Source: a virus. From it: 26,820 bases of DNA. The notes beneath the pieces are model-generated. The model worked only from the letters and a program-made list of their open reading frames with translations, was not told the DNA's origin and searched no databases. A program made the translations under genes and the position numbers. The DNA lies in IMG/VR virus record IMGVR_UViG_3300028557_001218, positions 1-26,820 of that record; one strand, written 5' to 3'. This document shows, piece by piece, positions 2,351 to 26,627 of this stretch; position 1 is the first letter of the stretch; the number at the start of each line of letters is the position of its first letter.

Positions 2351-4777
2351 ATGGCATATGTTATTATAAACGATCCTACTGGTGGTTTAACATCAACAGT
2401 AAGATGTGATAATCAAAACACCGCAACTAAACAATATGCAACAGTAACCGGTGGTTATCAAAATACATCATCAGGAAAATATTCATTTGTTGGTGGTGGA
2501 CAAAATAACACATCATCTTGTTATAACTCAGTTGTTGGCGGAGGGTTTTCAAATACATCTTCAGGGTTTTGTTCAGGAATTCTTGGTGGTTCATTAAATG
2601 TTGCCAATGGTGAGTTTTCATTTATTGGTGGTGGAAAAAATAATACCGCCTCAGATTCTTTATCAGTTGTTGCGGGTGGGACATTTAATGTTTCTTCTTG
2701 TGAATGTACTGTAGTTGGTGGTGGTGAAAATAACACGGTTAATTCTTATTATGGGATTATAGGTGGTGGTTTAAACAATACATCTATTGCTGACTTCTCA
2801 ATTGTTGGTGGTGGTTGTAATAACGCAAACTTAGGAAGTTCTTCTGTTGTTGGTGGAGGTAACTCAAACACATCGGTATCAAACTTTTCTGTTGTTGCTG
2901 GTGGTACAAGAAATCAAAACTACGGAACTTACGCCACAATATCTGGAGGTATTTGTAATAAAGCCTATTTAGATGGTGTAACAATTGGTGGTGGTTCATT
3001 TAACACCGCATTAAAATATAATTCAGTTATCGCGGGAGGTTATGGAAATACTGTATCAGGATATGGGTCAACCGTATCTGGGGGATATACAAATACCGTA
3101 ATTGGTGATTACTCAGTGGTTACTGGAGGTGAAGGTAATTTTACTGGTGTTATTGGTGGAATTGATATTCTTAATAATCCTGTTGTGTCAAGTGCAAATA
3201 CAATTAGTGGATACTTTAATGATATTACACCATCATCTACTCTTTCTGGTTTTGGATTTGGTGGTCAAGTGAATTTTAATTTTACGTCTCCTGGAACTTT
3301 AAGTAGTTATTATTTAGTAAGTAAAGGTAGTGATTATGTAAATAATGATACATTAACTTTTTTAGGGTCTAAATTTGGTGGTACATCCCCATCGGATGAT
3401 GTTACTCTTGAGATAACAACAGACAACTACGGTGATTTTGTTGCTATTGGTGGGGGTAGTGTCAATTCATCTAGAAAAAATCATAGTACAATAAGTGGTG
3501 GTTATAGTAATACAATTGACGGAAACTGTTCTACAATTGGTGGTGGATGTTGTAATACAATAACAAGATGTTCTCAATACTCAACAATAAGTGGTGGTAG
3601 GAGAAACTGTACTTACGGTAATTATTCTACAATTTCAGGTGGACGATGTAACAACGCTGGATCTTATGGTACGGTAAGTAGAACTTATAACTCAGTATAT
3701 ACTGGAGGAACATTAAACGGAACGTTTCTTTCTATAAACCCAACATCAACCAATTCATTGTATGGTTCAGGTGGACAGTTCGATTTTGGTTTCATCACAG
3801 GATTATTAGTTAATATAAGGATACCATACGGAGGACAACTTTACCAAGGAGGAGATAGATTATTTTTTGATGGTTCTTTGTTTGGAGGTGTGACTGGTAC
3901 TGATGATGTTACATTCCAGGTAAATACTAGTAATTTAGATTATGCGACTGTTGGTGGTGGATGTCGTAATACCGCCTCATCAGAGTACTCAACAGTAAGT
4001 GGTGGTTATGAAAATACCATATCAACTATATCTAATTACTCAACTATTGCCGGTGGTGCAGACAACACTATAAGTGGTTATTACTCAACTGTTGGCGGGG
4101 GTGAATTTAATATTATAGATGGTAATAATTCAACAATTAGTGGCGGGTATTATAACACAGTAAGTTCATCCTGTTCAACAATTAGTGGAGGTATTTGTAA
4201 TACTGCAAGTTCTTTATACTCAACAATTGGTGGAGGTCGTAATAACATAACATTGTGTAATGGATCAACCGTAAGTGGTGGATATCAAAATACTGCCGTT
4301 TCAGTTTATTCTTTTATTGGAGGTGGAAAAACAAATACGGTTTATGGTGATTGTTCTTTTATTTTATCTGATAATTCTATATTAAGTGGAAATAGGTCCG
4401 CAATTATTGGGGGTTCTGGAATTACAGGGACAACCGATAATACGGTTTATGTTCCTAACTTATCAATAGGAGGTAGTTTAAGTAAAAATTCAATTACTGT
4501 TGATGCGTTTTCCGATCCAGGATTAACATCTACAGATAATATTGTTTTCTTTAACGCATCTACCGGTGGTGGTACAATTTATTTACCGTTACCTGTTTTA
4601 GGAAAAGAAATTATATTAATTAGATATTCAACCACTAATACCGCAATTTTAGGTACAACCGGAGGGGCAACAATTAATGGTTCATCTACTAAAGGATTAA
4701 GCACACCGTTATATACTATAACCAGAGTTATTAGTAATGGGTTTGATTGGTTTGCAAACGAAGGTATTCCATTATAA
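2351..4777 (+). CDS. Second solenoid tail-fibre/adhesin
   Basis: An 808-residue protein, complete. It starts at an ATG after an A-rich leader with no Shine-Dalgarno. Most of it is tandem solenoid units of the type NTxSGxYSxVxGGGxxNT, the same family as the preceding gene. Two related non-solenoid insertions interrupt the array at about residues 271-365 and 446-535; both carry a GGQ-aromatic core, then FGG and DDVTxxxxT. The C-terminus (from about residue 720) leaves the repeats and ends in a beta-rich domain with a NGFDWFANEG strand, similar to knob domains at the end of phage fibres. Cysteine is unusually frequent (about twenty), usually at turn positions such as GGxCN. Likely an exposed virion adhesin; trimerisation and ligand are unknown. 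It is the nearest candidate substrate for the TibC-like transferase encoded at 5602. Confidence 0.8.
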   Translation: MAYVIINDPTGGLTSTVRCDNQNTATKQYATVTGGYQNTSSGKYSFVGGGQNNTSSCYNSVVGGGFSNTSSGFCSGILGGSLNVANGEFSFIGGGKNNTASDSLSVVAGGTFNVSSCECTVVGGGENNTVNSYYGIIGGGLNNTSIADFSIVGGGCNNANLGSSSVVGGGNSNTSVSNFSVVAGGTRNQNYGTYATISGGICNKAYLDGVTIGGGSFNTALKYNSVIAGGYGNTVSGYGSTVSGGYTNTVIGDYSVVTGGEGNFTGVIGGIDILNNPVVSSANTISGYFNDITPSSTLSGFGFGGQVNFNFTSPGTLSSYYLVSKGSDYVNNDTLTFLGSKFGGTSPSDDVTLEITTDNYGDFVAIGGGSVNSSRKNHSTISGGYSNTIDGNCSTIGGGCCNTITRCSQYSTISGGRRNCTYGNYSTISGGRCNNAGSYGTVSRTYNSVYTGGTLNGTFLSINPTSTNSLYGSGGQFDFGFITGLLVNIRIPYGGQLYQGGDRLFFDGSLFGGVTGTDDVTFQVNTSNLDYATVGGGCRNTASSEYSTVSGGYENTISTISNYSTIAGGADNTISGYYSTVGGGEFNIIDGNNSTISGGYYNTVSSSCSTISGGICNTASSLYSTIGGGRNNITLCNGSTVSGGYQNTAVSVYSFIGGGKTNTVYGDCSFILSDNSILSGNRSAIIGGSGITGTTDNTVYVPNLSIGGSLSKNSITVDAFSDPGLTSTDNIVFFNASTGGGTIYLPLPVLGKEIILIRYSTTNTAILGTTGGATINGSSTKGLSTPLYTITRVISNGFDWFANEGIPL
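2400..4400 (+). repeat. Solenoid repeat array of the second fibre gene
   Basis: About forty diverged in-frame units keep Gly-Gly or Gly-Gly-Gly and an NT/NN turn. They are interrupted only by the two homologous insert modules (about 3163-3455 and 3688-3960). The DNA is not identical from unit to unit, so this is an old expansion under protein-level constraint. Confidence 0.75.
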
Positions 4778-4865: not shown

Positions 4866-5609
4866 ATGTTTGTAAGTGTTTGTAATAAAGATTATTTAAT
4901 TGGGTTTGAGGTAATGTTAAAATCATTAATTGATAATAACCCAAGAGTTGTAAATGAAAATATCCCATTTGTTATAATTAGTAACGATTTAAACCCTGAA
5001 GATTTAATTACCTCAAGAAAAATATACAACAATATTCATATAAAAAGGTTTGATACTGAAAAATATTCTGAGATAGAAAAATTAAAAGACCAACAAAGAA
5101 TGTTTGGTGATTATACAAAATATGAAATTTTTTCATTAACCGAATTTAAAAAGATTATTTTTTTAGATTGTGACATTGTAGTGTTAGGTAACATAGATTA
5201 TCTGATTGATTATGAAAAACCATTTGGTGCGGTAAGAGAACTTTATATTGACCAATATAACACTGGAGTTATGGTAATTAGTAAAGAATTTTTAAATGAA
5301 AAAATAACAAATGATTTAATTCATTTAACAACCATTTATGGAATTACAGAACATTTAGATCAAGATATTATTGACCACTACTTTAGTGATATTATCACCC
5401 CAATTTCAATCGAATACAATTATTTAAAAACATATTCAAAAGAAATATTTAAAAATTCTGGATTACCAAAATATATTAAAATATTACATTTTATCGCAAA
5501 AAAACCTTGGCAAAACAAACCATTGGTCTTTTTAGAAGAAGGAACAATTTGGCAAGAAAAATATTGGTTTGATTACTATTCTAAAATTCTTAAATTAAAA
5601 AATGGTTAA
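4866..5609 (+). CDS. GT8-like glycosyltransferase
   Basis: A 247-residue GT-A fold enzyme, probably retaining and metal-dependent, that would move a sugar from a nucleotide-sugar to an acceptor in the cytoplasm. Family marks: FLDCDIVVLGNID at residues 99-111 with the DxD pair D101/D103, then YNTGVMVIS, then LDQDIIDHYF, and near the C-terminus LHFIAKKPWQ, which matches the HxxGxxKPW metal/UDP motif of GT8 except that Gly is Ala. The length is near the minimal GT8 catalytic core, with no membrane segment. It opens the decoration operon, 45 nt after the terminator, and overlaps the next gene by 8 nt. The donor and acceptor cannot be read from sequence; a fibre protein or a previously added sugar is likely from context. 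Confidence 0.8.
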   Translation: MFVSVCNKDYLIGFEVMLKSLIDNNPRVVNENIPFVIISNDLNPEDLITSRKIYNNIHIKRFDTEKYSEIEKLKDQQRMFGDYTKYEIFSLTEFKKIIFLDCDIVVLGNIDYLIDYEKPFGAVRELYIDQYNTGVMVISKEFLNEKITNDLIHLTTIYGITEHLDQDIIDHYFSDIITPISIEYNYLKTYSKEIFKNSGLPKYIKILHFIAKKPWQNKPLVFLEEGTIWQEKYWFDYYSKILKLKNG

Positions 5610-6510
5610 AAGACATTACGATAATACAGAACTATTAAAATATACTGAAAGGGATCCTAATTTATCTAATTTTAAAGATAAAGAACTTTTATTACATTTT
5701 GATTCTTTTTGTTTGGGGGATACAATATGTTTTTCATCCCTTATGGATCCGTTTATGGAATATCATAAACCAAAAAAAGTTTATGTTTCCACATTCTTTC
5801 CTCATTTATTAAAATCAACAAACCCAAAGTATGAATTCATTAATGCAAATGAATCTAAATCTATTAATGTAGATAAATTAATTGATGTTGGTTATCATAA
5901 AGATAATATGTCTCACACTCTTGGTGGGATGTTTTATGCCGCAAAAGACACAATGTTTTTACCACAAGACACAAAACCAGGTAAATGTCCTGTTATACCT
6001 AAACAAAGAATTATAAATAAAAATAAAATAACGATGGGTCCTGAAACAATAAAGGATATATCAAAATGGGAATATGATGGTGGTTGGCAAACAGTCATAA
6101 ATGAATTGGTTAATAATAATTTTGATGTTTATAATGTTTCATATGAGAATACATTAAATTTACAAAACGCAAAAGGATTTCACGGAAACAACGATATAAA
6201 TGTTTCATTAAATCATATTTTAGAATCAAGATTTTTTATTGGATTATCTTCTGGGTTATCTTGGTTGGCGTGGGCGTATGGGGTTCCTGTTGTTATGATA
6301 TCAAACTTTACTAAAAAACAAAACGAGTTTGAATGTTTTAGAGTTGAGAATCCTTACGTATGTAATGGGTGTTTTAATATGTTCCCAAATATTAAAAGTA
6401 GATGTCCAATATTTTTAAATACTGAAAGAGAAAATGAATGTCATAGAAGTATAACCCCAGAGATGGTTATCAATAAAATAAACGAGGCTATTATCTTTAC
6501 TAATAGCTAA
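5602..6510 (+). CDS. TibC/BAHT-like O-glycosyltransferase
   Basis: A 302-residue GT-B enzyme resembling the autotransporter strand-loop-strand O-heptosyltransferases (TibC/Aah family, related to GT9), which glycosylate Ser in beta-solenoid passenger domains. Seen: FCLGDTICFSSLMDPF (residues 36-51), the family's N-terminal loop; MGPETIKDISKWEYDGGW (145-162); FFIGLSSGLSWLAWAYGVPV (211-230), the donor-site helix; and a C-terminal cysteine set C254-x2-C257-x10-C268-x11-C280, corresponding to the four-Cys iron finger of TibC. It overlaps the GT8-like gene by 8 nt. The two genes immediately upstream encode Ser/Thr-rich beta-solenoids, the type of acceptor this family uses. The donor (ADP-heptose in bacteria) is not proven here. 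Confidence is high for the family and moderate for the acceptor. Confidence 0.85.
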   Translation: MVKRHYDNTELLKYTERDPNLSNFKDKELLLHFDSFCLGDTICFSSLMDPFMEYHKPKKVYVSTFFPHLLKSTNPKYEFINANESKSINVDKLIDVGYHKDNMSHTLGGMFYAAKDTMFLPQDTKPGKCPVIPKQRIINKNKITMGPETIKDISKWEYDGGWQTVINELVNNNFDVYNVSYENTLNLQNAKGFHGNNDINVSLNHILESRFFIGLSSGLSWLAWAYGVPVVMISNFTKKQNEFECFRVENPYVCNGCFNMFPNIKSRCPIFLNTERENECHRSITPEMVINKINEAIIFTNS

Positions 6511-6530
6511 TTAACTTTTATAATAAAATT

Positions 6531-7415
6531 ATGGAAAAAGAATATTCAATATTTCACATTGAGGGTGGATTAGGGAAGCATGTTTTGGCAACTGCGGTTG
6601 CTAAATGTATAAAAAATAATCATCCTAATAGAGAACTAATCATAGTTTGTGCCTATCCGGAAGTGTTTTTAAATTTAGATTACGTTGATAGGGTTTATCG
6701 TATTGGTATGACGCCTTATTTTTATGATGATTACATCAAAGATAAGGAAAGTTTAATTTTTAAACACGAACCATATTTTACATCAGACCATATTAATAAA
6801 AAATTACCATTAATTGTTAACTGGTGTAAGTTACTTGGATTAGAATACAATGGAGAACAACCATTTCTTTCGTTTAATTTAAGACAACAACAAATAGCTC
6901 ACGCTAAGTGGACAAGAGATAAACCAGTAATGGTTATCCAAACAAACGGAGGACCACTACAAGAACAACCATATCCTTATTCCTGGACTAGAGATATTCC
7001 TTATGATGTTGCCCAGAAATTAGTTGACCATTTCTCAAAATATTATCATATTATACAAATATGTAGAGATAAATCAAATGTATTAAATAATGTGGAAGCG
7101 TTTTTTGAACCGATGTCAAATATGGAATTATTTTCCTTACTTGCTTATTCTCAAAAAAGAATATTAATTGATTCTTGTTTACAACACGCATCAGCCGCAA
7201 TGGGATTAAAATCAACTATTTTATGGGTAGGAACATCACCTATAGTATTTGGTTATAACCTACATAACAATATAATTGCAACATTACCAACAACCGTTAA
7301 ATTACCAGATAGTTATTTATTTGATTATAATTTTAATGGTACGGTGCACGAATGTCCTATGTTTGACACAAACATTTTTGATATAAACGAAATAATTGAA
7401 ACATTAAAACAATAA
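6531..7415 (+). CDS. GT9-like (heptosyltransferase-type) glycosyltransferase
   Basis: A 294-residue protein with GT-B/GT9 features. The N-terminal glycine-rich loop HIEGGLGKHVLATAVAKCI (residues 9-27) is the acceptor-side loop of ADP-heptose:LPS transferases. The C-terminal half has LIDSCLQHASAAMGLKSTIL, equivalent to the donor-site segment IxxDSGxxHxAAAxGxP of the family, with Cys in place of Gly. It lacks the four-cysteine finger of the neighbouring TibC-like enzyme. It sits 20 nt after that gene and 2 nt before the sulfotransferase, clearly co-transcribed. It probably adds another sugar to the same glycan. It could also act on host lipopolysaccharide; the sequence does not decide this. Confidence 0.65.
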   Translation: MEKEYSIFHIEGGLGKHVLATAVAKCIKNNHPNRELIIVCAYPEVFLNLDYVDRVYRIGMTPYFYDDYIKDKESLIFKHEPYFTSDHINKKLPLIVNWCKLLGLEYNGEQPFLSFNLRQQQIAHAKWTRDKPVMVIQTNGGPLQEQPYPYSWTRDIPYDVAQKLVDHFSKYYHIIQICRDKSNVLNNVEAFFEPMSNMELFSLLAYSQKRILIDSCLQHASAAMGLKSTILWVGTSPIVFGYNLHNNIIATLPTTVKLPDSYLFDYNFNGTVHECPMFDTNIFDINEIIETLKQ

Positions 7416-7417
7416 CT

Positions 7418-8236
7418 ATGGTACAAAAAATATTTTTCCAAAGCTCATTACCAAGAGCAGGTTCTACATTACTACAAAACGTAATGGGACAGAACCCAGA
7501 TTTTTACGTAACACCAACATCGGGTGTTTTAGAATTAGTTTACGCATCAAGAGCGAACTATACCTCATCTCCGGAATTTAAAGCCCAAGACACTGAATTA
7601 ATGAAGAGTGGGTTTTTAAATTTCTGTAATCAAGGTATGGTAGGGTTTTTTAATGGTGTAACAGATAAACCTTATGTTTTAGATAAAAGTAGAGGATGGG
7701 GAGTCCACTATGGATTCTTAAATTCATTTTATCCTAACCCTAAAATTATTTGTATGGTTAGAGATTTAAGAGGGATATTCTCATCAATGGAAAAAAACTT
7801 TAGAAAAAATCAACATAAAGATTCTGGGTTAGTTAATCACGCTCAAATGAAAGGAACCACCACAGAAAAAAGAATTGACGTGTGGTCGCAATCTCAACCC
7901 GTTGGTATGTCATTAGAAAGATTATACCAAATGTTTAAAGAAGGTATTAGTCAAAATGTTTTGTTTGTAAAATTCGAGGACTTCACATCAAACCCTAAAA
8001 AGGAAATGCAAAGAATTTATAATTATTTAGAACTTCCGTATTTTGAACACGACTTCAATAACGTGGAACAAATAACTCAAGAAGACGATGAGGTTTATGG
8101 TATATATGGTGACCACACAATAAAAAGTAAGATAGAACCTGTTAAAAGTGATTATAAAGAAGTTTTGGGTGTTAACGCATCAAACTGGATTAAAACTAAC
8201 TATCAATGGTTTTATGACCAATTTGGATATTTTTGA
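7418..8236 (+). CDS. PAPS-dependent sulfotransferase
   Basis: A 272-residue sulfotransferase-family protein that would transfer sulfate from PAPS to a hydroxyl group. The 5'-phosphosulfate-binding loop is SLPRAGSTLLQNVM (from residue 10). The 3'-phosphate-binding motif is ICMVRDLRGIFSSMEK, with R115 and Ser 122/123. Between them LDKSRGWGVHY fits the substrate-side segment of bacterial members. The C-terminal FEDFTSNPKKEMQRIYNYLEL is the usual sulfotransferase helix-loop after the core. No membrane segment is visible, so it should act in the cytoplasm, unlike most Golgi-type relatives. The gene starts 2 nt after the preceding stop, and APS kinase follows directly, which together suggest the phage makes its own sulfate donor. 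The acceptor could be a virion glycan, a fibre residue (Tyr/Ser) or a host metabolite. Confidence 0.85.
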   Translation: MVQKIFFQSSLPRAGSTLLQNVMGQNPDFYVTPTSGVLELVYASRANYTSSPEFKAQDTELMKSGFLNFCNQGMVGFFNGVTDKPYVLDKSRGWGVHYGFLNSFYPNPKIICMVRDLRGIFSSMEKNFRKNQHKDSGLVNHAQMKGTTTEKRIDVWSQSQPVGMSLERLYQMFKEGISQNVLFVKFEDFTSNPKKEMQRIYNYLELPYFEHDFNNVEQITQEDDEVYGIYGDHTIKSKIEPVKSDYKEVLGVNASNWIKTNYQWFYDQFGYF

Positions 8237-8238
8237 TT

Positions 8239-8694
8239 ATGAGGGAAAATAAAATATATTGGTTTACTGGTCAACCTGGGGCAGGAAAGACAGTTTTGTC
8301 TTTAATGTTAAAAACAGTTTTAGAAACGAAACACAACGGTAAAATTTTTCATATTGATGGTGATGAACTTAGAACGTTATTTAACAATCAAAAATATGGA
8401 AGAGAAGGTCGTGAGGAAAATATTAAAAGAGCTCAAGACATTGCTAAGTTTATTTTGGTTCAGGGTAATAGTGTTATTGTTAGTTTAGTTGCTCCATATA
8501 AAGAACTTAGAGAAAGTTTTAAGTACGATTTAGGTGATTTACTTGTGGAGTTTTATGTTCATACAACAGACATTAGAGGTAGAGAACATTTTCATACTGA
8601 CGAATATGAACAACCAACAGAAAACTTTATTGACATTGATACCACAAATGTTAATCCTCAAATATCTTTAAACAAAATAATTGAAAATTTATGA
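8239..8694 (+). CDS. cysC: Adenylylsulfate (APS) kinase
   Basis: APS kinase phosphorylates adenylylsulfate to PAPS. The 151-residue protein has Walker A GQPGAGKT (residues 11-18), FHIDGDELR (38-45), the helix GREGREENIKRAQDIAKF that binds APS, VAPYKELRE, and a terminal YEQPTENFIDIDT segment like the YExPxxPExxIDT of CysC. The lid before that segment is slightly reduced, and the Ser that is phosphorylated in the E. coli enzyme (ISPH motif) is Ala here, as in many APS kinases. An in-frame TTG at 8233 is possible, but the ATG at 8239, 2 nt past the sulfotransferase stop, is the better start. It shares an ATGA overlap with the next gene. Role: donor supply for the adjacent sulfotransferase. Confidence 0.88.
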   Translation: MRENKIYWFTGQPGAGKTVLSLMLKTVLETKHNGKIFHIDGDELRTLFNNQKYGREGREENIKRAQDIAKFILVQGNSVIVSLVAPYKELRESFKYDLGDLLVEFYVHTTDIRGREHFHTDEYEQPTENFIDIDTTNVNPQISLNKIIENL

Positions 8695-9155
8695 TCTGGG
8701 AAGTTAAAAACCACGGGGGAGAACCCACATCAAATGAAAGTAAAAAGTATTCTATTTTTATTGGTAGATACCAACCATATCATTATGGTCATATAGAGTT
8801 AATACAACAAAAATTAAATCAAGGTATTCCGGCTCTTATTATGGTTAGAGATATTAATCCTGACGATAAAAATCCATTTACAACAGAACAAACGGTTGCA
8901 ATGATTGAGAAATATCACAAATCAAAAGGTGATGATGTTAAGGTTATTATTATTCCAGATATTGAATCTGTTAACTACGGTAGAGGAGTTGGGTATGAAA
9001 TAAACGAATTTACTCCTCCAGATAATATTGGTTTTATTTCTGCAACAGGAATTAGAAACTCAATATCAAAAGGTGATGATAAATGGAGGTTTATGGTTGA
9101 CGAATCAATACAAGAAGATATTATTAATTTTTTACAAGATGAAAACAAAAAGTAA
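8691..9155 (+). CDS. HxGH nucleotidyltransferase, possibly APS-forming
   Basis: A 154-residue adenylyl/cytidylyltransferase-like protein. The phosphate-binding motif is FIGRYQPYHYGH (residues 23-34, HxGH at 31-34), and the second nucleotide motif is ISATGIRNSI (116-125). GRYQPYHYGH is closest to NMN adenylyltransferases, but ATP sulfurylases use the same fold with an HxGH and an ISGTxxR motif. The placement, overlapping APS kinase by 4 nt and next to a sulfotransferase, suggests it makes APS from ATP and sulfate or otherwise serves this pathway. It also has VNYGRGVGYEI (residues 94-104), which I cannot assign to a canonical NadM or sulfurylase motif. An NAD-related function remains a real alternative. 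Confidence 0.65.
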   Translation: MIWEVKNHGGEPTSNESKKYSIFIGRYQPYHYGHIELIQQKLNQGIPALIMVRDINPDDKNPFTTEQTVAMIEKYHKSKGDDVKVIIIPDIESVNYGRGVGYEINEFTPPDNIGFISATGIRNSISKGDDKWRFMVDESIQEDIINFLQDENKK

Positions 9156-9579
9156 AATTTATCAAATTAGATTTAATACAGTTTCAAAAACTGAAGATGA
9201 GAGATGGAGATTAATTGAAAACGGGAATGAAACATTTGTTTCGGACATTATTATTGACGGTAATACATATACTACAAAGGATTGGTTACCGGAAATAAAT
9301 GACTATAAATGGCATATTAGTTGTGTTGGTCATTGCAAAATTAAAAATAATATCGCCTATATTAAAACAATTAAAGAAGAATCTGTTTTAGTTAGACATA
9401 TTCTTAAAACAATTACATACAGATTTTTAGGAACTTTAACTACCGTTGGGGTTGCCTATTCATTGGGGACCTCAATAGAGGTTTCGGCTTTACTTGGTGT
9501 TAGTGAGTTGGTATTAAAACCATTCATATATTTTGGTCACGAAAGATTATGGTATAATTTTATTAAGGTGAAAAAATGA
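9139..9579 (+). CDS. DUF2061 membrane protein
   Basis: A 146-residue protein that overlaps the previous gene by 17 nt. I choose the ATG at 9139 because upstream codons in this frame lie inside the nucleotidyltransferase and read as unnatural sequence. Residues 1-80 are polar and unassigned (a [12 protein letters not shown] strand is visible). Residues 83-146 match the DUF2061 pattern: [20 protein letters not shown], a second hydrophobic stretch ([18 protein letters not shown]) and the closing GHERLWYNF. Two membrane segments are likely. DUF2061 has no known biochemical role; I recall it occurring near sulfate-activation genes in bacteria, which would fit this place at the end of the sulfation operon, but that association should be checked. 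Confidence 0.75.
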
Positions 9580-9589
9580 CCTGTTCATT

Positions 9590-9609
9590 GTATTTATAGA
9601 AATAAATAC
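9590..9609 (+). promoter_or_regulatory. ATTTATA motif within a perfect hairpin before the stalk gene
   Basis: GTATTTAT and ATAAATAC form a perfect 8-pair inverted repeat around AGAA, ending one base before the ATG at 9611. The left arm includes TATTTATA, the recurrent element found 12-14 nt before other starts in the window. It could be a promoter element, an operator or an RNA hairpin covering the start. Confidence 0.4.
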
Positions 9610-9610
9610 G

Positions 9611-10276
9611 ATGAGTCAAATAATAACAATACAGAGTATAAATTTTGACGGTGAAATAGCAAATGTTTTATTTAAACCGGATAATGATAACATTACCATT
9701 AATTTGGATGATGTGACATTACCGTTTGTTTTTCAACCAGGATTACTAGTTCCCCAAAGAGAAGTTTATGGTACATATACTATTTTAGTATTAGGTGCCG
9801 ATTGTCCAAACATTTTAAATGTTCCAAGACCTACTCCCACACCAACTCCTACACCTACACCTACAAGAACTCCTACACCTACTCCTACAGTCACACCAAC
9901 TAATACCCCAACTAATACTCCCACTAATACACCTACACCTACGACCACACCAACTCCTACTGCAACAACAACCGCAACACCGACTCCTACACCAACTCCT
10001 ACTTGGAATTTGTGTGTGACTCCATTACCTCCAAACTTCACTAATACACCTACACCAACAAATACACCAACACCAACAAATACTCCGACAAACACACCTA
10101 CTCCTACCCCTACTCCTACTTGGAATGTCTGTATAACTCCGGTTCCTTTTGGGATTTCCCCAACACCAACCCCTTCTCTAACGTCAACAATGACCCCAAC
10201 ACCAACAAATACTTTAACACCAACACCAACACCAACTTGGAATATTTGTATAACTCCACTACCAACAACACCATAA
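9611..10276 (+). CDS. Pro/Thr-rich virion stalk protein
   Basis: A 221-residue protein. Residues 1-62 form a beta-rich module ([14 protein letters not shown], then VYGTYTILV) that is clearly related to the N-terminus of the protein encoded at 16910. The rest is low complexity: PT, TPTN and TTT runs interrupted three times by a TWNxCxTPxP motif at residues 131-140, 170-179 and 209-218, exactly 39 residues apart. The extended Pro/Thr runs resemble mucin-like or hydroxyproline-type O-glycosylated stalks. No signal peptide is visible, consistent with a virion component carried by the shared N-terminal module. A GT60-like GlcNAc-transferase gene lies 273 nt downstream. Function is inferred; a linker or fibre stalk is the best guess. 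Confidence 0.65.
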
Positions 10277-10277
10277 T

Positions 10278-10499
10278 ATGCCACATCAAATATCAATATC
10301 TGGAACAACAGGGACATCACCGTATGATGTATATGTTTGTGATACAACAAATACCTATTGTTATTTAGTGTCCGGTTCAACCTCAATCCCCCCAACATTT
10401 ATTTTTGATGTCCCATCACCATTAAATGATACAAACTCACTTTTATTAAAACTTATTGATTCAAATTTATGTGAGATATTTCATTATTATGAATGTTAA
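10278..10499 (+). CDS. Small Cys-containing putative virion protein
   Basis: A 73-residue protein that starts one base after the preceding stop, so it is probably translationally coupled to the Pro/Thr stalk gene. It has SPYDVYVCD, TYCYLV, PPTFIFDVP, SLLLKLIDSNLCEIF and a terminal YYEC, giving four cysteines and an alternating beta pattern. I recall similar small SGTxPYDVYVCD proteins in phages but cannot name a family. It is likely a small beta-sandwich cap or partner for the stalk protein. No catalytic motif is visible. Confidence 0.6.
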   Translation: MPHQISISGTTGTSPYDVYVCDTTNTYCYLVSGSTSIPPTFIFDVPSPLNDTNSLLLKLIDSNLCEIFHYYEC

Positions 10500-19235: not shown

Positions 19236-22166
19236 ATGATATCACAAGAAGAAATTAAATCATTTCTAGAAGGGAATGATTCGGAAGAGCACATCGTTGC
19301 TATTGAGTTTGACTACGTGTCAGACCACATTTATAAAATCAAAGAAATACCTGGAAAAGGAAAATCTATCGTTAGAGATAGTTTAATTGCGTTTGCTTGG
19401 GTCGGTGATTTAAAAGGATTAAATTTTTATCAAGGATCCAAAGCATTACAAAAAGAAGCAATGTCCAAATATGGAATTGTAATAGATAAATTACGAACTG
19501 ACGGTAATGAAAGATTAGAAAACGGTCTAACATTTATGGTTAAGTCAATGAAAGGTTATAGGTCCTTAACCCAGTTTTTCCGTGATGGGGGTATTGATCC
19601 GTGGGCAGAAAAAGTTAGAGATAGATTTCTAATGTTACCTCCTGTAGAACAATACCTCATCTCAAAAGAAAAAAGATTGTTTAAAGGGTTTGAGGAATAT
19701 AACGACATTACCAGATTCGGATTTGACCTTGAGACGACCTCATTAGAACCAAAAGACGGTCGTATTTTTATGATTGGAATGAAAACCAATAAAGGATTCC
19801 TAAAAGTTATTGAATGTAAAGATGAAGATGATGAAAGAAGAGGTCTTGTTGAGTTCTTCAGAACAATAGACGAACTTAAACCATCAATTATTTCAGGATA
19901 CAATTCTGCAAATTTTGACTGGTTTTGGATTTTTGAAAGATGTAAGGCTTTAAATCTTGATATTAAAAAAATAGCAAAGTCCCTTAACCCAAAAAGAACA
20001 ATATCCCAAAAGGAATCAATGTTAAAACTGGCAAATGAGGTTGAGAAATTTAACCAGGTTCAGTTGTGGGGATATAATGTAATTGATATTATTCACTCAG
20101 TTCGTAGATCACAAGCAATCAATTCAAATATTAAAGAGGCAGGACTAAAGTACATCACCAAATTTATTGATGGTGAAGCTAAAGACCGTATATATATTGA
20201 CCATACAAAGATTGGTCCTATGTATGCCGAAAAAGATGAGTATTGGTTAAACATTGAAAATGGTAAATATAAAAAAGTTGGTGTTGACTCTAAAGTTGAT
20301 GATGTTTGTTTTAGACGAGGAGACATTTATATAAAAACAACTGGGGACAACATAGTTGAGCGTTATCTCGATGATGACCTTGAGGAAACCTTGATAGTGG
20401 ATGACGAATTTAATCAAGGAACTTTCCTATTAGCTTCTTTAGTTCCAACAACCTATGAAAGAGTTTCAACAATGGGAACGGCAACTCTTTGGAAGATGGT
20501 AATGCTTGCTTGGTCATATAAACATGGGTTAGCCATTCCAGAGAAAAAAGAACGGAGAAATTTTGTTGGTGGTCTATCAAGATTATTAAAAGTAGGATAC
20601 TCTAAGGACGTTTTAAAACTTGACTACTCTTCACTATACCCATCCATTCAGTTAGTTCACGACGTGTTCCCTGAGTGTGATATAACAGGAGCAATGAAAG
20701 GATTGTTAACGTTTTTCCGTAACTCTCGTATTATGTATAAGAATTTGGCGTCCGAGTATAAAGGTATTGATAAAAAGAAATCTTTGTCATACGATAGAAA
20801 ACAATTACCAATTAAGATATTTATTAACGCATTCTTTGGATCGTTATCGGCACCACAGGTATTTCCGTGGGGAGATATTGATATGGGGGAACAGATTACC
20901 TGTACTGGTAGACAATACCTCAGACAGATGGTTAAATTTTTTACAAAACGAGGTTACACCGCATCAGTATTAGATACTGATGGTGTAAATTTTTCATTAC
21001 CGGAAGGTGGTGTTGATGGACGTGTTTATATTGGTAAAGGAAATAACTCTTTAATAGTGAAAGGTAAAACATATACCGGTTATGATGCTGATGTTGCAGA
21101 GTTTAACGATATTTTTATGAAAGGGGAGATGTTTTTAGATTGTGATGGGACTTGGGATTCTTGTATTAACTTAGCTCGTAAGAATTACGCAACAATTGAG
21201 CACAATGGTAAAGTTAAACTAACGGGTAACAGTATTAAGTCCAAAAAAATGCCAAAGTACATTGAGAAATTTTTGGATAAGGGAGTTAAACAATTACTTA
21301 GAGGTGAGGGAAAAGAATTTATTGAGTGGTACTATGAGTACATCCAAAAAATATTTGACCAAAGGGTACCATTGGCTGAAATAGCATCTAAATCAAGGGT
21401 TAAATTAAGTGTTGAGGATTACATTAAACGTAGTAAACAAACCACTAAGGCGGGGTCATTGATGTCTAGACAAGCACATATGGAACTTGTTATTAGAGAT
21501 GGTATTCAATCAAATCTTGGTGATACGATTCTTTATGTGAATAACGGAACAAAGGCGTCTCATGGTGATGTTCAGAAAGTTAATAAACCAAAGAAGGGTT
21601 GGACTCAAGAACAATTAGATATATTTTTCCAAACTAATGAAAGTCATAAGGAAAAAGTAAAATTCCTACTTAAAAACGGATGGGAACAATCTTGGTCTGA
21701 TGATAACTGGGTAAGAAGTGATTCACCAAATAAAGAGGCAAACACAGGTATACCAACAGAGGGTGCATATCAAAAAGCATTTTCCGACATTGTTGGGTCA
21801 GTTGTTCAATTAAATTGTTATCGTATTGAACCCTCCGATTTAGAAAATAATCCTGAAATGTTGGGTGAATATAATATCCAAAGAGCAATTACAACTTTTA
21901 ACAAACGAGTTGAGCCATTATTGATTGTTTTTGATGATGAGGTTAGAGATACATTATTAGTTAAGGATCCTGAAGATAGAAGTTTCTATACAACAGACCA
22001 GTGTAAATTAATTAATGGTAAACCATTTAACCCTGAAGACCAAGATGATTTAGATGATTTATTAACTATAACCACCGAAGAATTGGATTTTTGGAATCGT
22101 GTTGGTATTGACCCTAATTACATTTATGAATTTGCTGAAGAAGGGTGGGAACAACACATCAATTAA
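19236..22166 (+). CDS. 43: Family B DNA polymerase, T4 gp43-like
   Basis: A 976-residue replicative polymerase with proofreading exonuclease. Exo I is FDLETT (D164, E166), Exo II is GYNSANFDWFW and Exo III probably RYLDDDLEET. Polymerase motif A is LKLDYSSLYPSI with D463. Motif B is KIFINAFFGSLSAP with K527 and N531, Phe replacing the usual Tyr. Motif C is VLDTDGVNF with D580 and D582, where the usual Ser after DTD is Gly. Only about 64 residues separate motif A Asp from motif B Lys, far fewer than the roughly 150 in RB69/T4, so the fingers are short. The exonuclease-polymerase junction has NFVGGLSR, matching the YxGG region. All catalytic carboxylates are present, so it should be active. It would copy the phage genome with a clamp encoded elsewhere. 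Confidence 0.93.
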   Translation: MISQEEIKSFLEGNDSEEHIVAIEFDYVSDHIYKIKEIPGKGKSIVRDSLIAFAWVGDLKGLNFYQGSKALQKEAMSKYGIVIDKLRTDGNERLENGLTFMVKSMKGYRSLTQFFRDGGIDPWAEKVRDRFLMLPPVEQYLISKEKRLFKGFEEYNDITRFGFDLETTSLEPKDGRIFMIGMKTNKGFLKVIECKDEDDERRGLVEFFRTIDELKPSIISGYNSANFDWFWIFERCKALNLDIKKIAKSLNPKRTISQKESMLKLANEVEKFNQVQLWGYNVIDIIHSVRRSQAINSNIKEAGLKYITKFIDGEAKDRIYIDHTKIGPMYAEKDEYWLNIENGKYKKVGVDSKVDDVCFRRGDIYIKTTGDNIVERYLDDDLEETLIVDDEFNQGTFLLASLVPTTYERVSTMGTATLWKMVMLAWSYKHGLAIPEKKERRNFVGGLSRLLKVGYSKDVLKLDYSSLYPSIQLVHDVFPECDITGAMKGLLTFFRNSRIMYKNLASEYKGIDKKKSLSYDRKQLPIKIFINAFFGSLSAPQVFPWGDIDMGEQITCTGRQYLRQMVKFFTKRGYTASVLDTDGVNFSLPEGGVDGRVYIGKGNNSLIVKGKTYTGYDADVAEFNDIFMKGEMFLDCDGTWDSCINLARKNYATIEHNGKVKLTGNSIKSKKMPKYIEKFLDKGVKQLLRGEGKEFIEWYYEYIQKIFDQRVPLAEIASKSRVKLSVEDYIKRSKQTTKAGSLMSRQAHMELVIRDGIQSNLGDTILYVNNGTKASHGDVQKVNKPKKGWTQEQLDIFFQTNESHKEKVKFLLKNGWEQSWSDDNWVRSDSPNKEANTGIPTEGAYQKAFSDIVGSVVQLNCYRIEPSDLENNPEMLGEYNIQRAITTFNKRVEPLLIVFDDEVRDTLLVKDPEDRSFYTTDQCKLINGKPFNPEDQDDLDDLLTITTEELDFWNRVGIDPNYIYEFAEEGWEQHIN

Positions 22167-22205
22167 AAATTGATAATAAAAGTTTGAATTTTACTAAAAA
22201 CCAAA

Positions 22206-22214
22206 ATATTTATA
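22206..22214 (+). promoter_or_regulatory. ATATTTATA element before the RHH-like gene
   Basis: Exact copy of the recurrent element, but only 3 nt before the ATG at 22218, in a TATATATA stretch, so its role here is less certain than at other sites. Confidence 0.3.
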
Positions 22215-22217
22215 TAT

Positions 22218-22373
22218 ATGGGACGACCTAAAAAAAAAGAAAAGGATAAAAAAATTAAAGTTGGGATTTGTATGGATAGACAACTTTATAAAAAAGTTAT
22301 GGAAAATGGTGGTAAAGTGTCTCAAATAATTGAAAATATAATTAGGGGATATTATGGGGACAAAAATTTGTAG
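22218..22373 (+). CDS. Small ribbon-helix-helix-like DNA-binding protein
   Basis: A 51-residue protein starting MGRPKKKEKDKKIKVGICMD. The layout is a basic N-terminal arm, one beta strand (IKVGICMD), helix RQLYKKVMENGG and helix KVSQIIENIIRGYYG, as in CopG/Arc-type repressors, which bind DNA as dimers through the strand. It lies 51 nt after the polymerase stop and overlaps the HNH gene by 20 nt in another frame. It may regulate these genes or the polymerase. The assignment rests on pattern and size only. Confidence 0.6.
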   Translation: MGRPKKKEKDKKIKVGICMDRQLYKKVMENGGKVSQIIENIIRGYYGDKNL

Positions 22374-22998
22374 TAACTGTAAGGTGGAAAAAGATATTTG
22401 TTTTTTTGGGGTAAATAAACAAACAAAAAGTGGGTTTAGATCAACTTGTAATGATTGCAGGAAGATTGAAAGTAGAAAATATAGGGAAATAAATCCCGAT
22501 AAAAGAAAAGAAACTTTAAAAAAGTATTACAAAAACAATAAAGAGTCGGAATTATTAAGGTTTAAAACCTATAGAGAAATAAACCCTGATAAAAGAAAAG
22601 AAACCGTAAAAAAATACTACGAAACTAACAAAACAATTATTAATAAAAAACAAACAATTTTAAATAAAAAATATTACAATAACGATTATTATTATAAACT
22701 AAAACATTTATGTAGAAGTAGAATTACCGATTTTTTAAAAATTAAAAATCTTACAAAAAAAAATAAAACATTTGATATTGTTGGTTGTTCCCCCCAATTC
22801 CTAAAAGAATATCTTGAGAACAAATTTATAGATGGAATGACTTGGGAAAATTATGGGTTTTATAGTTGGCATATTGACCATATAATTCCATTATCTTCAG
22901 CAAAAACAGAAGAAGAAATTTATAAATTATGTCATTACAGTAACTTACAACCTTTATGGGTTAAAGAAAATTTAAGTAAAGGATCTAAATTAGTTTAA
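22354..22998 (+). CDS. HNH endonuclease with N-terminal zinc finger
   Basis: A 214-residue protein. CSNC (6-9) and CNDC (32-35) make a zinc ribbon. Residues 43-59 and 73-89 are two copies of YREINPDKRKETxKKYY, 30 residues apart, a basic DNA-binding repeat. The HNH core is SWHIDHIIPLSSA (H173, D175, H176) followed by CHYSNLQPLW (N197) and KENLSKGSK. This is the architecture of free-standing phage HNH/homing endonucleases that cut DNA lacking the gene and spread by repair. It sits just beyond DNA polymerase, a common neighbourhood for such genes, and ends where convergent minus-strand genes begin (3-nt overlap). The ATG at 22354 overlaps the RHH-like gene. Confidence 0.85.
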   Translation: MGTKICSNCKVEKDICFFGVNKQTKSGFRSTCNDCRKIESRKYREINPDKRKETLKKYYKNNKESELLRFKTYREINPDKRKETVKKYYETNKTIINKKQTILNKKYYNNDYYYKLKHLCRSRITDFLKIKNLTKKNKTFDIVGCSPQFLKEYLENKFIDGMTWENYGFYSWHIDHIIPLSSAKTEEEIYKLCHYSNLQPLWVKENLSKGSKLV

Positions 22999-23366
22999 GT
23001 TATTTTTAACCCATCGGATGAGGTAATATACCAATTACCATCAACAAACTGAAACTGAACACAAGCTCCTTTTTCTAAAAGGAGTTCATCCCAATCTTCA
23101 TCAATTTGACCAACATCTGATTTAACAAGAACCGTAGTTAATGATTTAATAACGATTTTATTATTTTTTTTAGAATTAAGTGTAATTTCACATTCCCCAA
23201 CATTTTTAACAATTAAGATAGTTTCTTCGTCTGTTATGTAGTTTGGGGTTGTTATTACTTTTGAAATTTCTTTACTGGGATCAACAATAACCTTTGGTTC
23301 AATAACAGTTTGTGTTTGATATTTCACAACATTTTTTCTTGGTGTTATATTTTCTATTCTTATCAT
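22995..23366 (-). CDS. Small beta-rich putative virion protein
   Basis: A 123-residue protein. After a polar N-terminal stretch (to about residue 45) comes a regular beta pattern: ETILIVKNVGECEITLNS, KIVIKSLTTVLVKSD, and a closing CVQFQFVDGNWYITSSDG. The closing GxxVxFxxxDGNWYI motif is common at the end of phage fibre or decoration domains, where it packs the last strands. It overlaps the upstream virion gene by 4 nt (ATGA), so both are made from one message. No catalytic residues are visible. Likely a decoration or small tail component; not recognised by name. Confidence 0.6.
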   Translation of the reverse strand: MIRIENITPRKNVVKYQTQTVIEPKVIVDPSKEISKVITTPNYITDEETILIVKNVGECEITLNSKKNNKIVIKSLTTVLVKSDVGQIDEDWDELLLEKGACVQFQFVDGNWYITSSDGLKIT

Positions 23367-24490
23367 ATTACATAAATTTGTCTTGGCATTGCTCTAAACT
23401 TAAGCGACTTATTTAAATTTTCGGCGATTAATGCTTCACGTTCCATTACCTTTTCAGGTTTTAATCTGGTTAGACGGCCTTCAGCCCCTATAAGTTCATC
23501 AATAAGTTTTGTTTTTTCATCTTTTGCTTCAGTCGCTAAAGATGCGTAATCCATTGTTAAATCACCACCTTCACCGGTTTTTAAATTACCACTAAATTTA
23601 CCACGAACTCTTGATAGAGTTTCTTTACAATACGCAATAAACCATCTTCTAACCCAAACTTGTGCTGGATTATTTAAATCAGTCCAACTAATCTTATCAA
23701 AAGGTACATCAGAAGGTAACTTAATTATATCTGGATTATCAGCTAAACATTGGTCTCTATCATCATTTGTATCATAATACCAATACCAAACACGACCTCT
23801 TGTTAAGGTTCCATTACCAAAATCAAATTTACCTCCAGGAGTGTTCATTAAGTGAATTGCTTTTTTACCTCCAGGTAATGCGGTTACTCTGTATGTTAAA
23901 TCACCAGCAATCATTCTTCTTTGTATATTAATTTCTTGCATTCTAAGTAACATATCAAAAGCCGGCATCATAAAGTAACTACCTGCCATATTACCCATTT
24001 GTGCTAGACCACCACCTCCTCCGAGACCACCACCAGCACCTAATGACCCAAAAGACCAAGGATCAAACATTGTGTTATTCAATGTTGTGGGAGTAAACCA
24101 AAGTAATTCGTTAAGTTCCCTACCCGCAGGAATTTCATATATTTGTTGATTAGGAACCAATTGAATGTAATCTTTTTTTAAAACCCAGTCACCACCAGCT
24201 TGTAAACCAACAATCTTAGAATAAGCATATGTATACCTTGTTTCATAATCTAAACTTCTTGTTGTAAAAGCTTTAGTTAAAGATTGTGTATCAAGATTAA
24301 GGTTATTAAGAGCGGTCCATTGAGATTCAATTAACCAATCCTGCACGTATTGGGAATACTCATCGATTGAAAATTCAAGTAGGGTATCCATTTGTTCATC
24401 CTCAAGTTCAATACTTCTTAAAGGAGCTCCAAGTACGTGTTTAACTTTAGTATAAAGTTTACTTCTTTCTGGTTCGCTTATAATTGCCAT
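23363..24490 (-). CDS. Putative neck/connector virion protein
   Basis: A 375-residue protein. The N-terminal helix pair YTKVKHVLGAPLRSIELED then LLEFSIDEYSQYVQDWLIES resembles the start of phage neck/head-completion proteins (the gp13-like group in marine T4-type phages), where an LGAPxxxIELxDEQ motif is followed by an amphipathic helix. A KDYIQLVPNQQIYEIPAG strand pair follows. A Gly-rich loop (LGAGGGLGGGGG) lies mid-protein (about 150-165), and the C-terminal third is helical and charged. It is next to another probable virion gene. The neck role is inferred from memory of the motif, so a generic virion structural label is safer. Confidence 0.55.
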   Translation of the reverse strand: MAIISEPERSKLYTKVKHVLGAPLRSIELEDEQMDTLLEFSIDEYSQYVQDWLIESQWTALNNLNLDTQSLTKAFTTRSLDYETRYTYAYSKIVGLQAGGDWVLKKDYIQLVPNQQIYEIPAGRELNELLWFTPTTLNNTMFDPWSFGSLGAGGGLGGGGGLAQMGNMAGSYFMMPAFDMLLRMQEINIQRRMIAGDLTYRVTALPGGKKAIHLMNTPGGKFDFGNGTLTRGRVWYWYYDTNDDRDQCLADNPDIIKLPSDVPFDKISWTDLNNPAQVWVRRWFIAYCKETLSRVRGKFSGNLKTGEGGDLTMDYASLATEAKDEKTKLIDELIGAEGRLTRLKPEKVMEREALIAENLNKSLKFRAMPRQIYVI

Positions 24491-24512: not shown

Positions 24513-26627
24513 TTAATCTAATAAATAAGATAACCTTTTACCTAAACTATGAACTCTTTCTGTTAATTTTTGATTCCCACCAAGTTTATCAATTAGTTCT
24601 TGGTAGTATTGAATTCTTTCTTTATAATACTCTATTTCATTTTCTTTATTCCTTGCAAGTTTTGGTTTAATACTAACCTTTTCTTCTTCCGGATGTACCT
24701 CAAACTCCATATTTGTATGTCTTGGATTTTCATAATAATATACAAAAAACTTAGGGAATGTTGACGGATTTACAACAGTTTGTATTCTTGAGTAATCGTT
24801 TCTAAACATTATGTATTTATCTTTATTTCTATCAACGTAAAGAATAATATCAACATTAGATTCTTTATATTTATTGTGATTATGCCAAGAAGGAACTTTA
24901 TAATAATATCCTCTTTCAGATCCAATTTTTTCAATCAACGAATAGTCAACTGGTTTAACTTGTACAAAATAAGAAGTCCCATCAATTACCACATCAAAAT
25001 CTTGACCTAATTTTCTATCTCTAATATCTCCAGCACATCTTTCAATTATATTCCAGGAAATGCCTTCATCATCAGGGTTTAATTTAAAGGTGTTTATTAT
25101 AACCGTTTTTGCGTAACTCTCATTTTCTCTACCGGTTAAAATAGTGTTTTTATTTATATCAACCAACCTTTTAGTGTATTTACCACTATTACCAACTAAT
25201 TCATTTAGATTGTTTAGTATCCAAGATTTAAAATCATCTAACCCATCAGTTTCCTCAACCCAAATTTTTCCAATCTCTTTATGAACAACACTATTTGTAT
25301 CAAACCTATTAATGATTGACCAATTACCATTCCCACCATATTTTTTTTCAGAAAAATTACCACCAAGAATCCCACGTTCTGTGGTGCAGTTTTTTGTTTC
25401 AATAATACCAAGACACCCGGTTCTGTATTTGCCAACACTACATTCTGAGTAAGAAGAGTTAATTAACTTTTTGAAAGTTCTGGGAGCCAAAGGAAAAACT
25501 TGTTTTGATTCAGTTAACGGTTTTTTATTGTTTATAGATTCGTTTAATTTTTTTGTGGTTGCAATCTCTAATAACTCATTAACAAACTCCCAATTAATAG
25601 AATTCCAGAATTTTTTAATATATTCGTCTCTTTTATTCCTATATCTTAAATAATAAGCGTGTTCCCACAAATCAAGACCTAATAATGGTTTTCCACCATC
25701 AATAACATTCATAAGTGGGTTATCTTGGTTTGCGGTTGACATTACTTTTAGTTTGTTTGATTTTGTTAAAACTATCCATACCCATCCGGACCCAAATCTT
25801 TCTGATGCAATCTTATTAAATTCGTCTTTTAATTTTTTTATATTTCCATATTGATTATTTATCCTTCTTAAAATTTCACCTTTTGGTAATTGTTTTTTTG
25901 GGGATAACATTTTCCAGAACAATGCATGGTTAAAAGCCCCACCAGCATTATTTCTAACTTTGGTGTCGTACTTACTTATATTTTTAATAATATCTTCTAA
26001 TTCTACCTCACCTTTTTTATTTGACAAAGCATCGTTCAACTTTTTAACATACCCTTTATAATGTTTATTATAGTGGATATCCATAGTTTCCGCATTAACA
26101 AATTGATTCATTGCAGAATAAGCGTAAGGTAATTTTTCAATACCTATTTTTTTCATTTCAGTTAAAAAATTATCTCTAATATTTAACTTTTCGGTTAAAA
26201 GAATGGATTCATTTAATAATTTTATTTTATTATTAATTCCTTCATACATCATTTCTTCTTCTTTTGGGTTTGACTTTTCAAACTTTTTTATGATTGACCC
26301 GGCTTCAGCATTTGCCTCATCTTCATTTTCCCCACCAATGTCTGGACCTCTTTTTTTTCCTTTTGTTATTCTTTGCCACTCGTGTACCCATTCGTGTGCT
26401 AGGGTTCTTGAAATGTCCCTGTTTAATCTATTCTTTGTTAGGATTTTTAATTCCGAATTACTTGTTCTACTACCAGTAGTCATATCACCGAATCTTTCTC
26501 CGGTAAAAATAACTGTAATATCGTTTTTTAATGGATAATGTTTTTGTAAGAATTTCATAAATTTATTCATCAATTCTTTATCCTTTGTGTTCATATCACA
26601 CTTAATATGTTTTACATTAACCTTCAT
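24513..26627 (-). CDS. Peptidase - Mn-type SOD - PD-(D/E)XK polyprotein
   Basis: A 704-residue protein with three domains. (1) Residues 1-125: zinc peptidase-like, HEWVH at 78-82 and a Glu-rich ENEDEANAEAG (100-110) that could give the third ligand. (2) Residues about 155-357: superoxide dismutase, with LPYAYSAMNQF, metal ligands H185, H234 (AFNHALFW), D319 and H323 (LDLWEHAYYLRYRNKR). G230 and Q301 (STANQD) are the Mn-type discriminating residues. (3) Residues about 495-565: PD-(D/E)XK-like core, ENESYAK, GQDFDVVID with D545, and QVK at 556-558. Linkers at 138-146 (LNESILLTE) and 361-373 (LNES to LTE) separate the domains. A coiled C-terminus ends in QKLTER. It is probably packaged with the virion. 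Expression starts near the minus-strand motif at 26633. Confidence 0.78.
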   Translation of the reverse strand: MKVNVKHIKCDMNTKDKELMNKFMKFLQKHYPLKNDITVIFTGERFGDMTTGSRTSNSELKILTKNRLNRDISRTLAHEWVHEWQRITKGKKRGPDIGGENEDEANAEAGSIIKKFEKSNPKEEEMMYEGINNKIKLLNESILLTEKLNIRDNFLTEMKKIGIEKLPYAYSAMNQFVNAETMDIHYNKHYKGYVKKLNDALSNKKGEVELEDIIKNISKYDTKVRNNAGGAFNHALFWKMLSPKKQLPKGEILRRINNQYGNIKKLKDEFNKIASERFGSGWVWIVLTKSNKLKVMSTANQDNPLMNVIDGGKPLLGLDLWEHAYYLRYRNKRDEYIKKFWNSINWEFVNELLEIATTKKLNESINNKKPLTESKQVFPLAPRTFKKLINSSYSECSVGKYRTGCLGIIETKNCTTERGILGGNFSEKKYGGNGNWSIINRFDTNSVVHKEIGKIWVEETDGLDDFKSWILNNLNELVGNSGKYTKRLVDINKNTILTGRENESYAKTVIINTFKLNPDDEGISWNIIERCAGDIRDRKLGQDFDVVIDGTSYFVQVKPVDYSLIEKIGSERGYYYKVPSWHNHNKYKESNVDIILYVDRNKDKYIMFRNDYSRIQTVVNPSTFPKFFVYYYENPRHTNMEFEVHPEEEKVSIKPKLARNKENEIEYYKERIQYYQELIDKLGGNQKLTERVHSLGKRLSYLLD

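Follow-up and report, generated by a model that had tools for sequence, protein, structure and literature searches.

The 704-residue protein encoded on the minus strand of a 26,820-nucleotide viral stretch (IMG/VR record IMGVR_UViG_3300028557_001218; the whole stretch analysed is referred to as the window) is composed of a zincin-like domain, an iron/manganese superoxide dismutase (SOD) and a nuclease-like C-terminal module, connected by two linkers that carry L/I-x-E motifs of the type recognized by the T4 prohead protease. The protein is best read as a cargo polyprotein that a T4-like myovirus would target to its head, process with the prohead protease and eject together with the DNA, an interpretation to which we assign a probability of about 0.7. 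For the wider proposal the odds appear slightly better than even: a jumbo T4-like lineage would carry a packaged, prohead-protease-cut magazine of effectors, in which a zincin–SOD chassis receives a nuclease cartridge that is swapped exactly at the protease-site codons and differs from phage to phage, each ejecting its own DNA-cutting enzyme along with an antioxidant one.

Domain organization of the 704-residue protein

The open reading frame extends from an ATG at position 26627 to a stop codon at 24513–24515, and the three domains of the original prediction are all located within this single frame (Table 1). The L/I-x-E junctions, the stand-alone forms, the swapping of the C-terminal module and the conserved neck-gene neighbour go beyond that prediction. 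Its full-length relatives include L002/L003 (92% identity) and L004, L005, L006 and L009 (58–65%). A chance origin of the domain matches is rejected by their E-values.

Table 1 Features of the polyprotein gene and its downstream neighbour in the window.
Feature	Residues	Coordinates	Strand	Basis
Whole open reading frame: zincin, linker 1, SOD, linker 2, nuclease-like module (cassette type A)	1–704	24513..26627	-	Open reading frame and full-length relatives
Zincin-fold metallopeptidase-like domain	1–129	26241..26627	-	Conservation, AlphaFold model, fold matches, stand-alone 129-residue gene in G017
HEWVH, putative zinc site	78–82	26382..26396	-	H78, E79 and H82 invariant in 32 relatives
E102-D103-E104, candidate third zinc ligand (E102 or E104)	102–104	26316..26324	-	Both glutamates invariant
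Linker 1 with LNE140, LTE146 and LTE157, predicted prohead-protease sites	130–157	26157..26240	-	L/I-x-E conservation
Fe/Mn superoxide dismutase	158–357	25557..26156	-	Pfam, PDB match, H185, H234, D319, H323, G230, Q301
Linker 2 with LNE363 and LTE373, predicted prohead-protease sites	358–373	25509..25556	-	L/I-x-E conservation
Exchangeable C-terminal module type A, also containing LTE690	374–704	24516..25508	-	Model, conservation, exchange
PD-(D/E)XK-like core with E503, D543 and Q556-V-K558	491–640	24708..25157	-	Fold matches, invariance
Downstream gene, 375 residues, putative neck/head–tail adaptor		23363..24490	-	PHROG 211 (E 1.2e-8), synteny

The N-terminal domain is probably a zinc peptidase, as judged from its AlphaFold model (pLDDT 84). 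In this model the HExxH motif is predicted to lie on a helix that follows a mixed β-sheet, with a glutamate on the next helix, which is the layout of the zincin superfamily. Zincins rank first among the fold matches (Z up to 9.8, with an rmsd of 2.8 over 108 aligned residues), the top ones being YbeY, M1 aminopeptidases and Wss1. In a library of viral models the domain matches a 127-residue phage protein, A0A6J5L9U4 (E 4e-14), and models of IrrE-like and SprT-like phage proteins also resemble it structurally. Pfam gave sub-threshold matches only, the best being M78 (IrrE) at 0.0086 and SprT at 0.058, and a sequence profile of the domain found nothing above noise in the PDB. The HExxH peptidase-like domain of the original prediction is borne out by the resemblance of the model to zincins and by the invariance, in 32 relatives, of H78, E79 and H82 of HEWVH and likewise of E102 and E104.

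The central domain matches both SOD families far past the cut-off and in the expected order, Sod_Fe_N (PF00081) over residues 164–242 (E 6.7e-21) and Sod_Fe_C (PF02777) over residues 248–351 (E 4.3e-38), and its top PDB match in a phmmer search is a superoxide dismutase (E 5e-59, residues 165–354). The four metal ligands are invariant across 26 relatives together with G230 and Q301, two residues that by sequence point to the manganese type, and the earlier description of a complete Mn-type SOD thus stands. In the SOD tree the IMG/VR sequences form a single clade (support 96/93) whose sister is a Fluviicola SOD and which is surrounded by SODs of Bacteroidota; this grouping rules out a contaminating bacterial gene. 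The zincin-fused SODs sampled form one supported subclade (99/96), as if the zincin–SOD fusion had arisen once.

The C-terminal module begins with a Cys/Gly-rich segment (residues 374 to about 490). Its model, over residues 374–704, is of moderate confidence, with a mean pLDDT of 65 and a core at about 75–90. The PDB matches of the α/β region, approximately residues 491–640, are almost all PD-(D/E)XK nucleases (Z 5–7), among them SPARDA, I-Ssp6803I, Hjc and DpnI. All 36 non-redundant type A modules retain the candidate active-site residues E503, D543 and Q556-V-K558, in which glutamine takes the place of the glutamate in (E/Q)xK. Fold matches and invariant residues together support the PD-(D/E)XK-like assignment of the original prediction for this region, and module A is probably a DNA-cutting enzyme.

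Relatives of the protein carry other C-terminal modules, B and C, which are unrelated to A and to each other in profile–profile comparison (probabilities under 1%). Sequence profiles of A, B and C found nothing above noise in the PDB, and Pfam searches with A and C were uninformative. Residue sets of the PD-(D/E)XK kind can be picked out in B (E..PYD..SCK) and C (E..KADL..ExK), and a further module, D, contains ..GVD..QVK; a nuclease function for B, C and D can be taken as a lead only. An extra domain of approximately 120 residues lies between linker 2 and module A in the zincin–SOD proteins of L176 (position 2308, plus strand, 958 residues), L196, L198 and L245; it is duplicated in L176, and every copy is preceded by an L/I-x-E motif.

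L/I-x-E motifs at the domain junctions

The prohead protease of T4, gp21, cuts after the glutamate of L/I-X-E, and the peptides it removes are capsid-targeting sequences; aspartate at the cut position stops processing and leaves targeting intact (PMC9026906). Motifs of this form are present at the domain boundaries of the window protein, as required of a gp21 substrate. The only L/I-x-E columns kept in at least half of 29 non-redundant relatives are those of E140, E146, E157, E363, E373 and E690, the last of which is weaker than the junction sites. Conservation at site 373 is just 67%, and at site 146 aspartate replaces glutamate in some relatives. In the same 29 sequences the motif reaches a density of 105 per 1,000 residues in linker 1 and 71 in linker 2, compared with 9.5 elsewhere, and exceeds what composition explains, with 98 occurrences in linker 1 against 38 ± 5 in shuffled sequences and 34 in linker 2 against 9 ± 3.

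The motif immediately precedes the (M/A)KKIGI start of the SOD in 77 of 78 non-redundant SODs, in the form of 17 different triplets. All 75 junctions between the SOD and a following module contain at least one L/I-x-E, and 63 contain at least two, compared with 6% of background windows, these being counts from kin sequences and so not independent of one another. A stronger argument than the counts is that the middle residue has drifted between a constant L/I and a constant E.

Related records show similar tags on other proteins. In G005, an N-terminal double L/I-x-E tag occurs on 29 of 117 open reading frames, where 10.5 are expected; genome-wide, the enrichment stands out in two of the four records searched and is weak in the other two, and for this reason it is not claimed across the whole lineage. 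Tagged frames within approximately the first 41 kb of G005 (1–41 kb; the record of L016, with loci L084 and L085) are candidate packaged proteins, and include an L,D-transpeptidase-like protein (22095–22964) and large proteins within 30114–35447. A 370-residue protein in the head gene region of the same record (69129–70241) has tag-like motifs at both ends, the C-terminal one being LTENDLTRIVKRVLNE, so tags may also be C-terminal.

Cassette exchange and genomic context

About 150 distinct related proteins, all from IMG/VR metagenome contigs, were sorted by domain. Zincin–SOD occurs alone or is followed by one C-terminal module, which belongs to one of three unrelated types (A, B or C). Proteins that do not include the zincin have the orders sod-A-C, sod-A-B, sod-A and sod-C, and there are also SODs joined to module D, SODs alone, and A, C or the zincin alone. 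On a tree of 61 zincin–SOD cores the C-terminal type switches at least 21 times. The exchange is seen most closely in L244 (type A) and L279 (type C), which are 98.1% identical in DNA across the 3,963 nt that end at the LKE codons just behind the SOD, have nothing in common for the next 1.05 kb or so, and return to 97.8% identity 7 nt past the stop codon; three more pairs repeat the pattern at lower identity. The C-terminal module is thus a cassette recombined at the LKE codons, with linker 2 as its left edge. Such frequent swapping of the nuclease-like module fits a role in conflict, and the exchange itself does not tell whether host, rival phage or plasmid DNA is the target.

The modules also occur as separate genes with leaders resembling the linkers. 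SODs that lack the zincin start with an N-terminal leader of about 30 residues, the counterpart of linker 1, whose last residues before MKKIGI or AKKIGI are L/I-x-E. Short N-terminal leaders such as MKIIITEEQYRILNE are found on modules A and C when these stand alone. Linker 2 is missing where the SOD is the last module. The zincin has no leader of its own, either in the fusions or in the 322-kb record G017, in which it is encoded by a separate 129-residue gene that stops at the point corresponding to the start of linker 1, with a leader-bearing SOD gene 146 kb away. Linker 1 is therefore the SOD leader, internalized by fusion.

A protease of the S77 family, to which T4 gp21 belongs, was found in 8 of 26 large related records (G005, G007, G013, G014, G016, G017, G021 and G022), and the records without it are likely to be fragments. 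Gp23 was searched for in 15 of the 26 large records and in G005; S77 accompanies Gp23 in every record where Gp23 was found, apart from G023, in which the contig breaks off next to gp23. G007 combines the S77 protease with the same architecture as the window protein, and G021 gave no SOD match and contains a stand-alone module C. The window itself, a 26.8-kb fragment, includes neither S77 nor gp23, and the protease is assumed from its relatives. Given the L/I-x-E junctions, the separate genes with similar leaders and the S77 protease of related records, the term polyprotein used in the original prediction is better supported than the sequence alone could show.

The related capsid proteins retain the sequence (H/F/Y)LINE|A(T/S)S, which resembles the end of the T4 gp23 propeptide. 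Their nearest isolate counterparts belong to Flavobacterium and Microcystis phages; one of these, Flavobacterium phage immuto, gave no SOD match. The host is likely to be a member of Bacteroidota. In 107 of 111 zincin–SOD loci with sequence beyond the gene, the putative neck gene lies directly 3′, usually after a gap of 20–45 nt, which leaves no room for an immunity gene between the two.

Elsewhere in the window, the plus-strand region 4866–10398 encodes a GT8 glycosyltransferase, a sulfotransferase (PF13469, E 1e-21), an APS kinase (PF01583, E 6e-18), a cytidylyltransferase-like protein and a DUF2061 membrane protein, and looks like a phage-borne set for sulfation and glycan modification. An 808-residue protein upstream of it (2351–4777, plus strand) has a sub-threshold match to an ice-binding β-roll (PF21300, E 8e-6) and is perhaps a fibre or adhesin.

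Proposed route, alternatives and related systems

From these features we infer a route that covers the time of expression, targeting, S77 cutting, retention, ejection, and the activities and targets of the released enzymes. The polyprotein gene would be expressed together with the late head and neck genes, a timing suggested by its neighbourhood, and the junction peptides would act as T4-like capsid-targeting propeptides that bring the precursor into the prohead core. There, a gp21-type (S77) protease would cut after L/I-x-E, chiefly at E140/E146 to free a zincin of about 16 kDa, at E157 to free the SOD of about 24 kDa, and at E363/E373 to free a nuclease of about 37–39 kDa. The enzymes would remain inside the capsid until they pass into the cell alongside the DNA; injection of the protein is suggested by the analogy to T4 capsid-targeting propeptides and by the late-gene context. 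Once in the cell, the SOD would take away superoxide, the zincin would cleave one or more host proteins and the exchangeable nuclease would cut host or competitor DNA, these activities being read from the conserved residues of the modules. The roles originally suggested, with the SOD countering oxidative defence and the nuclease attacking host DNA, are plausible in this setting.

Polyvalent proteins offer a different account of the processing. Zincins are their commonest domain and are thought to process them (PMC5512222), so the window protein might be cut by its own zincin, the mode suggested for DdrB of phage P1, with L/I-x-E serving only in helical linkers or as scaffold-binding signals; the AlphaFold model does predict linker 1 to be helical. 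This explanation is unlikely and is weakened by the persistence of the junctions in proteins that have no zincin (sod-A-C, sod-A, sod-C and SOD alone). The zincin of G017, moreover, is encoded far from the SOD gene, and T4 gp21 recognizes just such a pattern, in which L/I and E are constant and the middle residue varies. We regard as similarly improbable an intracellular metabolic fusion, in which the SOD would protect the infected cell and never be packaged. Plain stand-alone SODs do occur in phages, and in lake phages SOD has been interpreted as an auxiliary metabolic gene (PMC12542629), but the SODs of other phages lack the leader or the fused modules. A cytosolic enzyme would be expected to have neither conserved L/I-x-E junctions nor leaders resembling T4 propeptides, nor a fixed position next to a putative neck gene. 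The tight linkage with the putative neck gene would also suit a structural or scaffold-like component of the head or neck whose enzyme folds are kept for binding and not for catalysis. The catalytic residues of the SOD and zincin and the nuclease E...D...QxK set are, however, all invariant, and the C-terminal part is exchanged freely, which makes a structural role very improbable.

The head-targeted cargo polyprotein preferred here shares features with several known systems. Like the polyvalent proteins, for example DdrB of phage P1, it has several effector-like domains in one late polypeptide, with a zincin as a frequent partner, and those proteins are likewise probably packaged and injected (PMC5512222). 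With three domains and a putative neck gene as neighbour, it has the two or more effector-type domains and the late context that characterize the group. It differs in that its C-terminal module is a cleanly exchanged cassette and in that its junctions bear T4 gp21-type sites, whereas processing of polyvalent proteins is credited to the zincin (PMC5512222). The T4 internal proteins IPI–IPIII and Alt are similar in their L/I-x-E motif, gp21-family protease, gp23-type capsid and diverse cargo behind a conserved leader. They have an N-terminal propeptide and one cargo each, whereas in the window family the signals are internal and repeated between two to four modules, and the cargo is enzymatic. 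An N-terminal propeptide of 10–20 residues of the T4 type is absent from the window protein, which starts with the zincin; N-terminal signals are found only in stand-alone SOD and nuclease relatives. Strictly speaking, the protein therefore does not belong to the T4 internal proteins. Polymorphic toxins resemble the family in having a conserved N-terminal part and recombinational exchange of C-terminal nuclease-like modules, but here the putative neck gene comes next, in place of an immunity gene, and processing would occur via L/I-x-E. With no immunity gene, the protein is not a polymorphic toxin.

Phage SODs as such are already known. Those of Pseudomonas phage PA5oct (gp223) and Vibrio phage 2.275.O share the Fe/Mn SOD fold but consist of one domain of about 185 residues that is 26–28% identical to the window SOD. 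PA5oct gp223 (L114), a plain Fe/Mn SOD with relatives in phages that include Paride and Callisto, is annotated as hypothetical, yet noted as detected by ESI-MS/MS. Searches of the open-licence literature found neither a paper describing the present architecture nor, in the literature searched, superoxide dismutase as packaged cargo, and the word superoxide is absent from both the polyvalent-protein paper (PMC5512222) and a jumbo-phage survey.

If the proposed route is correct, T4-like phages deliver several enzymes from one precursor by reusing their capsid maturation protease, and the L/I-x-E signature would provide a way to list head-packed proteins by sequence only. It would also make it possible to test whether reactive oxygen plays a part during the first minutes of an infection, and what drives the rapid diversification of the packaged nucleases.
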